From NCBI GenBank assembly GCA_945861715.1, contig CAMAVK010000002.1:198440-262439 (forward strand): 64,000 nucleotides of DNA, given 5' to 3'. Positions 16,279 through 39,480 of this stretch are shown one piece after another (within the stretch, counting starts at the first letter, position 1; each line of letters opens with the position of its first letter). This DNA comes from Candidatus Woesearchaeota archaeon (GTDB taxonomy: Archaea; Nanobdellota; Nanobdellia; Woesearchaeales; GW2011-AR9). The position numbers were made by a program, and so were the translations under genes. The notes beneath the pieces are model-generated. The model was not told the origin of the DNA and searched no databases. It saw only the letters and a program-made list of their open reading frames with translations.

Positions 16279-16403
16279 CGCCAGCGCCCGGATTTGAACC
16301 GGGAGTTCCTTGCGGAACAAGATCTCTTCACTTGGTTTTAGGTTTGTTGTACGCCCTTGTCAAGTTTCCAGTCTTGCGCATTACCGGGTTGTGCCACGCT
16401 GGC
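16279..16403 (-). tRNA. tRNA-Ser(GGA) with a 42-nt intron
   Basis: A class II tRNA with acceptor GCCAGCG/CGCTGGC, D arm with GG, anticodon stem CAAGA/TCTTG, loop CTGGAAA, long variable arm TTCC-GCAA-GGAA, T arm CCCGG-TTCAAAT-CCGGG and discriminator G, as in archaeal tRNA-Ser. A 42-nt intron (16324-16365) interrupts the loop at the canonical 37/38 site; its ends pair through CTTG/CAAG. The four-base central helix of the splice motif is weak (two mismatches), so this is a relaxed bulge-helix form. The mature length is 83 nt. Confidence 0.9.
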
Positions 16404-19594: not shown

Positions 19595-19720
19595 TGGCGA
19601 AGGGGGGATTTGAACCCCCAACCTCCACGTAACCCAGTTTACGTACTAGTCATCGAACAATTGTTCTCATTGCTCATTTCATATGAGCGTGGCGCTATAA
19701 CCAGGTTAAGCTACTTCGCC
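19595..19720 (-). tRNA. tRNA-Met(CAU) (or Ile2) with a 51-nt intron
   Basis: Mature 75-nt tRNA: acceptor GGCGAAG/CTTCGCC, D arm GCTT...TAGC, anticodon stem CCACG/CGTGG, loop CTCATAA, T arm GGGGG-TTCAAAT-CCCCC, discriminator A. The CAT anticodon and ordinary G1-C72 pair indicate elongator Met, or Ile2 with a modified C34; the sequence alone does not decide. A 51-nt intron lies at 37/38 (19631-19681). The splice motif is perfect: central helix CTCA/TGGG with three-base bulges TAT and TTA. Confidence 0.9.
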
Positions 19721-34219: not shown

Positions 34220-35797
34220 TAGTTCCCGTTGATCCTGCGGGGGAGTGCTGCTATGGGAGTTCGGCTAAGCCATGCAAGTCAGAGGATTCGCAAGAGTCCA
34301 GGCTGAATGCTCAGTAACACGTCAATAATCTGCCCTTAGGTCGGGGATAACCTTGGGAAACTGAGGGTAAAACCCGATAGGTAAGGAATACTGGAATGTT
34401 TTCTTATTCAAAATTAGCCTAAGGATGAGTTGGCGGCTGATTAGGCTGTTGGTAGTGTAACGGACTACCAAACCTACGATCAGTACGGGCCGTGAGAGCG
34501 GTTGCCCGGAGAAGGGTACTGAGACACTGACCCTAGCCCTACGGGGTGCAGCAGGCGCGAAAACTTTCCAATGTGCGCAAGCGCGAGAAGGGAACTCCCA
34601 GTGCTCATGTTTTACATGGGCTTTTGCTAAGTGTAAATAGCTTGGCGAATAAGTGGTGGGTAAGACGGGTGCCAGCCGCCGCGGTAACACCTGCGCCACA
34701 AGTGGCATTCGCGTTTATTTGGCCTAAAGCGTTCGTAGCCGGATCTGTAAGTCCTGAGTGAAATCGTTGCGCTTAACAAAACGGCGTGCTCGGGATACTG
34801 CAAATCTAGGGATTGGGAGGAGTCGGGGGTATTTTCGAGGGAGCGGTAAAATGCTATAATCTCGAGAGGACCACCTGTGGCGAAGGCGCCCGACTAGAAC
34901 AAGTCCGACGGTGAGGAACGAAAGCTAGGGGAGCAAACCGGATTAGATATTAAGAATCCTGCTAGATTTTCTGAAGAGTATTTTCACATAGTTTGCAAAG
35001 CTACGAAGTGTGAAATGAAAAACTGATTATCGTTAATGAGGATGATTAACTAATTACCCGAGTAGTCCTAGCCGTAAACGCTGTGAACTAGATGTTGCGT
35101 ATTCTTCGTGAATATGCAGTGTCGGCGTGAAGACATTAAGTTCACCGCCTGGGAAGTACGGTCGCAAGGCTGAAACTTAAAGGAATTGGCGGGAGAGCAC
35201 CACAAGGGGTGCGGCGTGCGGTTTAATCCAACTCTACGCGGTGAATCTCACCAGCAGCGACGGCAGGATGAAGGTCAGGTTGAATGTCTTACCCAACGAG
35301 CCGAGAGGTATTGCATGGCCGTCGTCAGCTCGTGCCGTAAGGTGTCCTCTTAAGTGAGGTAACGAGCGAGACCCATGCCCATAATTGCTAACAGGCTCTC
35401 TGGAGTGTCTGAGCACCTTATGGGGACTGCTGTGGAAACACAGAGGAAGGTGTGGGCAACGGTAGGTCTGTATGGTCCGAATCTGCTGGGCTACACGCGC
35501 GCAACAATGGCCGGAACAATGGGATGCAACACCGAAAGGTGGAGCTAAACCTCGAAATCCGGTCTTAGTTTGGATTGAGGGTTGTAACTCACCCTCATGA
35601 CAACGGAATCCCTAGTAATCGGGCTTCATCACGGCCCGGTGAATATGTCCCTGCTCTTTGCACACACCGCCCGTCAAACCAACCGAGTTGGGTTCGGGTG
35701 AGATCCAGCTTCTAGCTGTATCAAATCCGGATTCGGTGAGGTGGGTTAAGTCGTCACAAGGTATCCGTAGGGGAACCTACGGATGGATCACCTCCTT
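34220..35797 (+). rRNA. 16S ribosomal RNA, interrupted by one intron
   Basis: Archaeal small-subunit rRNA from near GTTCCCGTTGATCCTGC to GGATCACCTCCT. Diagnostic sites are present: GTGCCAGCCGCCGCGGTAA (34670), AAACTTAAAGGAATTGGCGG (35173), TTGCACACACCGCCCGT (35658), and the anti-Shine-Dalgarno CACCTCC. The first site has TTCCCG...CGGGG where most archaea have TTCCGG...CCGGA, a compensated change in helix 1. A 107-nt intron (34949-35055) interrupts GATTAGATACCC. Without it the mature RNA is about 1.47 kb. Start and end are estimated from conserved ends. Confidence 0.96.
34949..35055 (+). other. 107-nt bulge-helix-bulge intron in 16S rRNA
   Basis: The universal GGATTAGATACCC sequence is split between T34948 and A35056. 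The junctions form an archaeal splice motif: exon TTAG pairs with intron CTAA (four bp), flanked by three-base bulges ATA and TTA; cutting after the second bulge base (AT^A, TT^A) restores GGATTAGAT|ACCCGAG exactly. Inside, TTAA/TTAA and ATCC/GGAT extend the helix. The location corresponds to between E. coli positions 793 and 794. There is no endonuclease gene in it; it is too short. Confidence 0.9.
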
Positions 35798-35849: not shown

Positions 35850-35962
35850 GGGCCCGTAGCTCAGGGGTAGAGCGCCTGCCTTGCAGGATGTGAATAATAT
35901 GAATAATATTACTGTTCATCTAAGTGAGCAGGAGGCCTCGGGTTCAAATCCCGACGGGTCCA
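35850..35962 (+). tRNA. tRNA-Ala(UGC) with a 41-nt intron, in the rRNA spacer
   Basis: Acceptor GGGCCCG/CGGGTCC, D arm GCTC/GAGC, anticodon stem CCTGC/GCAGG, loop CTTGCAA after splicing, T arm with TTCAAAT, discriminator A. tRNA-Ala between 16S and 23S is the standard archaeal arrangement. A 41-nt intron (35886-35926) lies at 37/38. The splice motif is perfect: central helix CTTG/TAAG with bulges CAG and TGA, and inner helix GATG/CATC. Mature length 72 nt. Confidence 0.95.
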
Positions 35963-36159
35963 TTCCTTGAGAAAGGAAAGTAAAGGTCCCAAAAGGGCCA
36001 AAACGTCTTCGAGAACGGCAGTTCTTGGCGACGTAGGTTAGATATGAGTGATTTGCAGTCGAGTGAGCACTGTTTAAATCCATCCCAACTTCATATTGAT
36101 GAGCCATAAGTAGGTTGTAATGTGTTTGAATAAATGTGAGAAATCACAAATTTTCTACG

Positions 36160-39035
36160 TACGCTGCTAGATGGATGACTAGGCTCAAGATGCCGAAGAA
36201 GGACGTGACAAGCTACGAAATGCCTCGGCGAGTTGAACGTGGGCGTTGAACCGAGGATGTCCGAATGAGACTTCTCTTTAAGAACCCGTATGGGTTAGGG
36301 AACGCAGGGAATTGAAGCGTCTTAGTACCTGCAGGAAAAGAAATCAATTGAGATGCCGTTAGTAACAGCGAGCGAAAGCGGCTCAGTTCAAACCGAATCC
36401 GTTGCAGTAATGTAACGGGAATGTGGTGTTGTGGACTCTTTTTTAAGCCAACATGTTGACTCGAAGTCTGCTGGAACGCAGCACAGTATAGGGTGATAGT
36501 CCCGTAGAGGTAAACAAGTTGGTTGTAAGAGTATCCTGAGTACCATACCTTGAAATTGGTGTGGGAATCTGGGGAGCATTAATCTCTAAAACTAAATACG
36601 TCTTGAGACCGATAGCATATCAGTACCGCGAGGGAAAGTTGAAAAGAACCCGTAAAAGGGTGTTAAAAGATCTGAAATCTAGCAGTTATAGAATGATAGG
36701 GCCCTTTGGGGTTCTATCGTGCTTTTTGAATAAAGCGCCAGGGAGTTTTCTTCAGTGGCAAGGATAACTCGTAAAGAGGTATCCGAAGCGAAAGCAAAAT
36801 CCCGCAGGTAACGAGGGGAGTCGTATGAAAGTGCGATAAGTCACTGGGGACAGACCCGAAACCGAGCGATCTATTCCTGGGCAGGCTGAAGCGAGGGTAA
36901 GACCTTGTGGAGGGCCGCAGAGGTTCTACGTGCAAGTGTTCTTCTGACTTGGGAATAGGGGTGAAAAGCCAATCGAGCTCGGCGATAGCGGGTTCCTGCC
37001 GAAATTGACCTTAGTCAAGTCTCGGACGAGATGGTTATGGTTGTAGAGCGACGGATAGGGGGCTTAGGCGGGGAAACCTGTCGGCTCTTTGTCCAACTCC
37101 AAATGCTGTAACATTGTAGACTCCGGGAAACAGGGAATGTTGGGGTAAACTTCATTTCCGCGAAGGGAACAACCTAGACTACAGTTAAGGCCCCTAAATA
37201 CCGACTCAGTGATAAAGGGTGAACGGTGTCCGTGATCTGAGACAGCGAGGAGGTTGGCTTAGAAGCAGCCATCCTTTAAAAAGTGCGTAACAGCTTACTC
37301 GTTGAGGTCGTGGGCCCGGAAAATTGACGGGTCTAAGTCGGTTGCCGATACTGTAGGCCACGATAAGTGGAGGTAGGCAGGCGTGCTCGTAGGGTAGAAG
37401 CTTTTTCGTAAGAAGAGGTGGACCTGCAAGCAATGAATATCCTGGTGGTAGTAGGATCTTAGCAGTGTGTGAATCACTGCCGTCGTAAGGGCAAGGGTTC
37501 CTTGGCAATGTCTGTCAGCCAAGGGTTAGTCGATCCTAACCTAACTCGTAACTGAGGAAGGGGAAAGGGAAAGCGGTTAATATTCCGCTACTATTGTCAT
37601 ATGTGCGGTGACGCAAGTTTTATTTCTGACGCTTCGGAATAGGTTGACACATCTTGTCTGGTGTGCCAACGCGAATAATGGTGGGGAGTATCGTAATGAT
37701 GAGAACCAGCATAAAGCGCGGACGAGCGGGTCTATGACTCGTTCAATTGATTTCTGGAGTCCTTGAAAAGGGAATAAAAATAAATTGATGATAATCGTAC
37801 CCAGAACCAGCACTGGTGCCCCTAGGTGAGAAGCCTAAGACGTGTGAGTTTAAACTAGTTCAGGGAATTCGGCAAATTGGTCCCGTATCTTCGGTATAAG
37901 GGATCCCTAATTTCGTATTCGTATGAGTGCGATTGTAGGGCGCAGAGACCAAGGTGGTCCGACTGTTTAACAAAAACTTAACATTCTGCGAGGCTGTGAA
38001 GCTGTGTATAGAATGTGACATCTGCCCAGTGCCAGTACTTTAAGCTTCGTTTCAACGGGGTGAAGAGCTGGTAAACGGCGGGAGTAACTATAACTCTCTT
38101 AAGGTAGCGTAATACCTTGTCGATTGAATGTCGACTTGCATGAATGGTGTAACGAGATTGCCACTGTCCCGAACTAGTGTCTCCCGAACACTCCGTTCTG
38201 GTGTAAAGGCCAGAGATTTCCAGTGGGAAGCGAAGACCCCGTGAAACTTTACTGTAGCCTGTCGCTGTGGTGTGAATTTTGTTGTATAGTGTAAGTGGGA
38301 GCTGCTTGAGGCCATAGGCGTTAGCTGGTGGTTTAGGCGATAATGTAACACCACTCTCCAGAATTTACATCACTCACCCGATAAGGGGACACCGATTGGT
38401 GGACAGTTTGGCTGGGGTGGCACGCAGTTGAAAGGATATCAATTGCGCCCAAAGGTTGACTCATCCGGTTTAGAAATCCGGAGTGGAGTGCAAAGGCATA
38501 AGTCAGCCTGATTGGACTTTAAACATAACAAATTCCAAACGCGAAAGCGTGGCTTAGCGAACTCCTGTGCCTTCTTAATGAGGGCCAGGAATGACTGAAA
38601 AGTTACTCCGGGGATAATTGAGTTGTCGCGCCCGAGAGTTCATATCGACGGCGCGGTTTGCTTCTTCGATGTCGGCTCATCCTATCCTGGCGGTGCAGAA
38701 GCTGCCAAGGGTGGGGGTGTTCACCCATTAAAAGGGTTCGTGAGCTGGGTTCAGAACGCTGTGAGGCAGTTTGTTTGATATCTACTGGGAATGTTGGGTA
38801 TCTGAAAGGAAGGATCTTTTAGTACGAGAGGAACGAAGGTTCGTTGCCTCTGGTGTACCGGTTGTCTGATAAGGCACGCCGGGCAGCTACGCAATAAGTG
38901 ATAAATGCTGAACGCATCTAAGCATGAAGCACACCTTGAAATGAGATACCCTAGGGCACGGCAAGAACAGCCGTTTGATAGAAGTGAGGTGTACGCACGA
39001 AGGCAACGACGTGTTGAGCCTGCACTTACTAACGC
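36160..39035 (+). rRNA. 23S ribosomal RNA
   Basis: Archaeal large-subunit rRNA, about 2.88 kb. Conserved sites are all present and uninterrupted: CGGCGAGTTGAACGTGGGC (36223), AACTATAACTCTCTTAAGG with the 1920-1940 region (38086), GAAGACCCCGTG (38232), peptidyl-transferase GGGGATAATTGAGTTGTCGCG (38610), TTCGATGTCGGCTCATCCT (38667), and the sarcin-ricin AGTACGAGAGGAACG (38821). Ends are estimated. No intron was found, unlike the 16S. No 5S follows within the window. Confidence 0.95.
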
Positions 39036-39480
39036 CCATATCTTTTCACATTACAATCTACTTATGGCTTTCATCATTTTTTTCTTTGTTATTAATCATT
39101 ATTTTATTGTAGCTTTAGCTATGGTGTCTTTTTGAACATAATGATTTTCTTGAGAAATATTTTATGTAGCGAGAGCTCTGCTTTTAGATGCGTTTTGGTT
39201 CAACGTTTTTCTCGTTTTGTTTTAGTGGATTTGATACCCAACATGGTGTTTATTGGTTAGTAAACTGCCTCATATTCGGATTTGGTATTTTTTAGGAACC
39301 CTTTTTTGTGAATTTTACGTCGTTACCCCACCCTTTTGATTTGGTATTGGGTGTTTATATCTCTTAATTTAGTGCAATTTGGATGAGCCGACGTCGAAAG
39401 AATTATAATTGCTTGGTTGGTTTTTGGTTTACGGATTTATTGAGTAATTTTGGTGAGAATTATTTATATATTGATTATCG
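39036..39480. other. Gene-free T-rich spacer after 23S
   Basis: About 445 bases holding no convincing gene, no 5S rRNA and no tRNA. Several T-tracts just after the 23S end are likely terminators. An AT-rich segment before 39481 should contain the promoter for the deacylase gene. Confidence 0.55.

Follow-up and report, generated by a model that had tools for sequence, protein, structure and literature searches.

Introns of the bulge–helix–bulge (BHB) type are usually described by the motif found at their splice sites. For archaeal 16S rRNA genes, a survey of introns records 13 sites, including 374, 548, 722, 781, 803, 901, 908, 919, 1093, 1205, 1213 and 1391 (PMC4496867). Site 793 is absent from these 13 (the nearest are 781 and 803), and a paper on archaeal group I introns lists no intron at 793 (PMC6125680). 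A search limited to the open-access literature found nothing on this site.

We analysed an intron at site 793 in a stretch of 64,000 nucleotides of DNA from a Candidatus Woesearchaeota archaeon (hereafter the window). It goes beyond an ordinary BHB intron in its complementarity to the exons, in the complementarity of an internal segment to its own ends, and in the discordance between introns and hosts in a family without any member longer than 205 nt. The coordinates of its parts are collected in Table 1.

The interrupted 16S rRNA gene and its splice motif

The 1.3-Mb Woesearchaeota-type genome (98% complete) gave a single SSU match, on contig C2: the window's 16S rRNA gene, recognized by RF01959 (Rfam archaeal SSU rRNA) with 1409 bits and followed downstream by an intron-bearing tRNA-Ala and then by the 23S gene (36147–39051). 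Positions 34940–35066 read GGATTAGAT^107 nt^ACCCGAGTAGTCC. The initial annotation had placed a 107-nt insertion at 793/794 (E. coli numbering), within a universal site of this gene, and had proposed that cleavage restores the canonical sequence. All this is borne out: exact removal of the 107 nt leaves the junction GGATTAGAT^ACCC and gives back the conserved GGATTAGATACCC, the same site is empty in relatives, and the RF01959 match and the consensus fold (see below) agree with the sequence on the position. The predicted consequence for the 785F/806R primers, namely that PCR would miss the organism or give an oversized product, holds on these same three grounds (sequence, RF01959 match and consensus fold). 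The segments complementary to the exons, the segment matching the intron's own ends and the discordance of introns and hosts are additions to that annotation. Since the intron blocks primers across 785–806, amplicon surveys undercount these archaea: where the site can be read, it is occupied in 43 and empty in 93 of the order's genomes, so that about one third are not amplifiable with such primers.

At the ends of the insertion, a TTAG/CTAA helix flanked by the three-base bulges ATA and TTA had been proposed. RNAalifold, run on 36 aligned homologous sites without any structural hint, recovered exactly this arrangement: G785–G786 paired with C796–C797, a bulge of three bases on each side, UUAG (788–791) paired with CUAA, and an intron helix of 4 bp with changes on both sides in 14, 17, 17 and 15 of the 36 sequences. 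The canonical BHB, i.e. a 4-bp central helix and opposite three-base bulges, is present in 44/44 long introns. In a block alignment of these 44 introns, the inward extension P1 is paired in 97.7% of cases, compared to at most 49% in slid registers, with 77 double-changed cells.

Table 1. Features of the 793 intron and of its host gene (positions refer to the window)
Feature	Position	Strand	Basis
16S rRNA gene, interrupted, sole copy found	34222..35796	+	RF01959 match
BHB intron of 107 nt, at E. coli 793/794	34949..35055	+	sequence; relatives with empty site
e5: exon GCAAAC, E. coli 778–783, helix 24 5' strand	34933..34938	+	complement of i5
BHB central helix, exon strand UUAG (788–791)	34943..34946	+	pairs with 35050–35053; 44/44 and 36/36 homologues
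BHB 5' three-base bulge AU^A, carries 5' splice site	34947..34949	+	consensus structure
Intron helix P1, 5' strand UUAA, extends inward	34950..34953	+	44-intron alignment
s1-y segment, degenerate in window copy	34964..34983	+	complements joined intron ends in many relatives
Hairpin H3, 5' arm, presents i5/i3	34984..34989	+	44-intron alignment
i5: intron GUUUGC, fully complementary to e5	34991..34996	+	6/6 Watson–Crick
i3: intron GCUACG, consensus ACUACU	35000..35005	+	5/6 pairs with e3 in window copy
Hairpin H3, 3' arm	35008..35013	+	44-intron alignment
Intron helix P1, 3' strand UUAA	35046..35049	+	44-intron alignment
BHB central helix, intron strand CUAA	35050..35053	+	homologue pairing, consensus structure
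BHB 3' three-base bulge UU^A, carries 3' splice site	35054..35056	+	consensus structure
e3: exon AGUAGU, E. coli 799–804, helix 24 3' strand	35061..35066	+	sequence, complementarity

The genome itself encodes the splicing machinery: a splicing endonuclease, EndA, represented by one protein (217 aa, PF01974, E = 2.4e-29) that most resembles 1a79 of M. jannaschii in sequence, and the ligase RtcB (PF01139, E = 2.1e-168). A single-subunit (alpha) endonuclease of the M. jannaschii type needs a canonical BHB, and the invariance of the motif fits this requirement. An indirect sign that BHB splicing is at work in the cell is the tRNA-Ala(UGC) of the 16S–23S spacer, which carries an intron of its own (RF00005, 60.5 bits across 113 nt, 35850..35962, + strand). 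Altogether, the element is very probably a spliced BHB intron, and the mature 16S rRNA would then lack the 107 nt.

The window has three tRNA matches, each of them interrupted and 113–126 nt in length (16279–16403 and 19595–19720 on the − strand, 35850–35962 on the + strand), and ARAGORN in its default mode found zero tRNAs in the window; the tRNAs of this genome may be intron-rich.

Complementarity of the intron to both exons

Most introns of 80–145 nt carry the hairpin H3 (paired in 96% of cases, with 150 double-changed cells among 44 introns), and the segments i5 and i3, complementary to the exon segments e5 and e3, lie in its loop. Complementarity between e5 and i5 is perfect (6/6) in 26 of the 44 homologues, as in the same-gene pairs GCAAAC/GTTTGC, GCAATC/GATTGC and GCGATC/GATCGC; other genes hold further combinations, such as GCGAAC/GTTCGT. 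The positions of i5 were set partly by complementarity itself, and when i5 was placed without reference to e5, it fell in the wrong spot in many introns and the signal became much weaker, so that the main support for e5–i5 is a permutation with free search. In this analysis, the exon hexamers were shuffled among introns and each was left free to choose its best place: the observed score was 234.5, compared to 184.4 ± 7.0 for the permuted hexamers (maximum 204.5), and none of 300 permutations reached the observed value. When the exon hexamer was shifted from −8 to +8, the score had its maximum exactly at 778–783. On the 16S tree, the type of exon hexamer changed about 18 times and exon position 780 about nine times, yet this position is paired in 44/44 introns.

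The second pairing, e3–i3, is found in 90% of cells, compared to at most 35% in slid registers. It rests mostly on conservation, because e3 hardly varies; one compensated exon change is found in L053, where exon AGTCGT is matched by intron ACGACT.

H3 adjoins i5 without a linker in 32/44 introns and i3 in 31/44, which would make an almost perfect four-way junction. Covariation supports the pairing of i5 and i3 with the exons; the nearly linker-free geometry is putative. In mature helix 24, 778–783 lies opposite 799–804, so that both intron pairings compete with the mature fold. Docking is not required for splicing as such, since introns of 20–59 nt without i5/i3 occur at the same site.

A predicted second fold of the intron ends

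Many introns hold an internal A?TTAG motif (y) that is complementary to the last 6–8 bases of the intron. In the window copy y is degenerate, with approximately 6 of 8 pairs possible with the intron 3' end. In 19 of the 19 introns with a single motif, the base that varies in y is the complement of the one that varies at the 3' splice site, CTAA?T, and four types of pair are represented (y/splice-site base T–A in 10 introns, C–G in 4, G–C in 2 and A–T in 3). BHB splicing leaves this match unexplained, as the matched base is an unpaired bulge base in the BHB. Directly upstream of y lies s1, which pairs with the first intron bases (s5); in the BHB fold, s5 pairs with s3, near the intron 3' end. 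In introns of the L052 type, s1-y is the complement of the joined intron ends, with one base bulged.

Compared with permuted partners, z was 14.5 for s5–s3, 10.9 for s5–s1, 6.8 for the 3' end with y and 11.9 for the joined ends with s1-y, all values being inflated by the relatedness of the sequences; the control pairing of the 3' end with a downstream segment gave 0.0. Both folds are supported by covariation in about half of the introns. They are mutually exclusive, since CUAA cannot serve the exon and y together. In silico, the BHB fold is favoured over the y-paired state by 5.2 kcal/mol on average (19 introns), and the y-paired fold is the predicted circular optimum in only about five introns with a perfect y; a switch between the two would therefore have to be kinetic or protein-assisted. 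Circular-fold energies from a forced-pair model were set aside because forcing the pairs suppressed helix H1. In the 3' exon, only five bases separate the splice site from e3; we estimate that these are too few for the y helix together with H3, so that docking and the y fold are probably exclusive as well.

Two short introns, L126 (55 nt) and L108 (46 nt), have no docking hairpin and keep an internal complement of their own 3' end; complementarity to the ends can thus exist apart from exon docking.

These pairings suggest the following order of events, an account that we consider evenly balanced between right and wrong as a whole. While the 3' exon is being transcribed, y would mask the 3' splice site until e3 appears. 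H3 would then fold back, i5 and i3 pairing with e5 (778–783) and e3 (799–804), the weak middle of helix 24; this docking would tie the intron to its exons, hold the two strands of helix 24 apart there for as long as the intron remains, and free the 3' splice site from y, whereupon the BHB could form. EndA would cut the intron of the 790 loop out of the precursor and RtcB would seal the exons, as the BHB motif and the encoded enzymes suggest. In the competing fold, the intron 3' end would pair with the internal UUAG copy (y) and the 5' end with the adjacent s1; the freed intron may refold in this manner, bringing its ends together for circularization. The s1-y pairings are supported, whereas the role given to them here is putative. 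An intron that covaries both with its exon and with its own ends points to a coupling of rRNA folding, splicing and intron release.

The same data can be read more simply: the element could be a BHB intron like any other, in a 16S site that is new, whose complementary segments merely aid the folding of the precursor, with neither a switch nor any special circularization. The best supported helices are the BHB and P1, most precursors are predicted to be most stable in the BHB fold, and short introns without i5/i3 are present at the 793 site, all of which agrees with such a reading. However, i5 tracks exon changes, and in 19/19 introns y tracks the base that the bulge leaves unpaired at the 3' splice site, a match that BHB splicing alone does not need. 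We regard the simpler reading as somewhat doubtful, and prefer the docking and switch account.

Distribution, apparent movement and relation to known systems

Occupied sites were searched with the 3'-junction pattern CTAANTACCCNNGTMGTCC, which introns with other 3' ends escape. Within the order, the 793 site is occupied in 43 of 353 genomes and intact and empty in 93, the rest showing neither state. In a sample of the class, 21 of 378 genomes match the 3'-junction pattern, 6 of them outside the order. A collection of 84,980 species yielded 58 matching contigs, nearly all with DPANN labels (Woesearchaeota, Pacearchaeota, Aenigmatarchaeota, Micrarchaeota, Parvarchaeota or Nanoarchaeota); the few labelled bacterium, Aminicenantes or Euryarchaeota look like label errors. 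Among 40 relatives searched for 16S genes, several sites were empty and others carried 28–135 nt at the identical base. In total, 61 distinct introns of 20–205 nt were gathered at the site. Very short ones measure 20 nt (L111), 28 nt (L050, from the window organism's own family), 35 nt (L127) and 46 nt (L102 and L108), and that of L111, ATAGAAAAATTCTACTAAAT, retains the BHB ends.

In several relatives (L017–L020 and L028–L030, from genomes G037, G010, G023 and G007), the contigs stop at nearly one and the same point, about 100 bases past 16S model position 828–857, perhaps through a recurrent assembly break or a further insertion.

The similarity of the introns does not follow that of their hosts: across 946 pairs, intron identity shows no correlation with the 16S identity of the hosts (r = 0.00), and shuffled introns gave 0.50 ± 0.04. 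The introns of L059 and L072 are 81% alike at a 16S identity of 83.7%, those of L035 and L036 are 60% identical at a 16S identity of 96.3%, and the best intron match differs from the nearest host in 37 of 44 introns. Occupied and empty sites are found together in three genera. These observations point to lateral exchange of the intron between hosts, a reading tempered by the small size of the introns, by possible chimeras among the 16S contigs and by trees of moderate quality.

Such spread would use a route that is not encoded in the intron itself. No intron of homing-endonuclease size was found among the 61 at the 793 site (the longest has 205 nt), and the window intron, with 107 nt, is too short to hold an ORF or endonuclease, a LAGLIDADG gene included. 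Lateral spread without an encoded endonuclease reopens the question of how such introns move. Elsewhere in the genome, outside the rRNA genes, a free-standing 158-aa ORF matches LAGLIDADG_3 (E = 1.9e-7; L140:1746–2222, − strand, on contig C3, at about 42.1 kb); it may be a homing endonuclease that acts in trans or what is left of one. A search for ectopic intron copies gave none that was convincing in this genome or in 60 relatives; a pattern search of viral contigs gave none either, the phage matches covering 16S exon only.

The intron RNA could itself be the mobile agent. The excised, perhaps circular, RNA would recognize helix 24 of an intron-less 16S rRNA through i5, i3 and CUAA, EndA and RtcB would reverse-splice it, and a DNA copy would follow. 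The discordance between introns and hosts, the presence and absence of the intron inside single genera, the absence of 793 introns longer than 205 nt, and the way in which i5, i3 and CUAA read helix 24 like exon-binding sites would all agree with this route. On the other hand, we know of no reverse transcription step for BHB introns, no second intron copy was found in the genome, and a trans-acting homing endonuclease is a simpler explanation, the genome having the free-standing LAGLIDADG-like ORF; we consider RNA-based mobility unlikely. We give equally little credence to a broader reading that joins the parts, in which ORF-less rRNA introns across DPANN would find their target by base pairing that clamps helix 24 on its two strands, a splint inside the intron, aligned with the joined ends, would switch between a spliceable and an excised or circular state, and the same pairing would let the excised RNA invade the intron-less 16S of other lineages. 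If this is true, a BHB intron that is spliced by proteins would recognize its exons in a group-II-like manner and move as RNA.

Less probable still, the insert might persist as an unusual expansion segment of the mature ribosome, or the 16S rRNA might be fragmented there in its mature form. Insertions in rRNA, retained or excised, have precedents elsewhere, but the invariant canonical BHB with its exact three-base bulges and the presence of the splicing genes argue against retention here, and an insert in the P-site's 790 loop should block function. Finally, an assembly or binning artefact can practically be dismissed: although metagenomic 16S genes assemble poorly and one MAG (G076) shows an occupied and an empty 16S site (contigs C46 and C19; a mixed bin or two alleles), independent assemblies of MAGs from many unrelated projects have introns with covarying structure at the same base, and this conservation across multiple genomes excludes chance.

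Other RNA classes were considered and rejected. A group I or group II intron gave no Rfam match, even at a relaxed threshold. In an H/ACA guide, the order would be the reverse of that seen here (i5 with the 5' exon, i3 with the 3' exon), and the targets are 15 nt apart. As for a C/D-box guide, the CUGA- and UGAUGA-like strings of the window intron are not conserved in relatives, and a snoR64 match lies on the other strand with 16 bits against a threshold of 45. A model with only 10 base pairs, mostly exon (R1), was left out of the searches.

By its testable features, the 793 element is a BHB intron, set apart as a variant by the proposed exon docking and by end complementarity. With the 16S BHB introns of Thermoproteales and Desulfurococcales (PMC4496867) it shares the BHB ends, a position in functional loops of the 16S rRNA, a conflict with universal primers and a patchy occurrence, and some of those introns are likewise small and ORF-less. 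It differs from them by its unlisted site, its DPANN hosts, the absence of homing-endonuclease-sized members among 61 introns, and the conserved segments complementary to the exons and to its own ends. The BHB introns of tRNAs have the same motif and presumably the same EndA and RtcB; by contrast, the 793 intron has an rRNA host and long-range complementarity to its two exons, in covariation with the host gene. Archaeal group I introns (PMC6125680) are alike in one respect, the pairing of intron segments with both exons, whereas the 793 introns have no match to a catalytic core in Rfam, end in a BHB, measure 20–205 nt and would bind exon segments 5–10 nt away from the splice sites. Finally, as in bistable RNA switches, the same strands take part in two exclusive pairings, each of them conserved; unlike in those switches, no ligand is implied, the proposed input being the transcription of the 3' exon.
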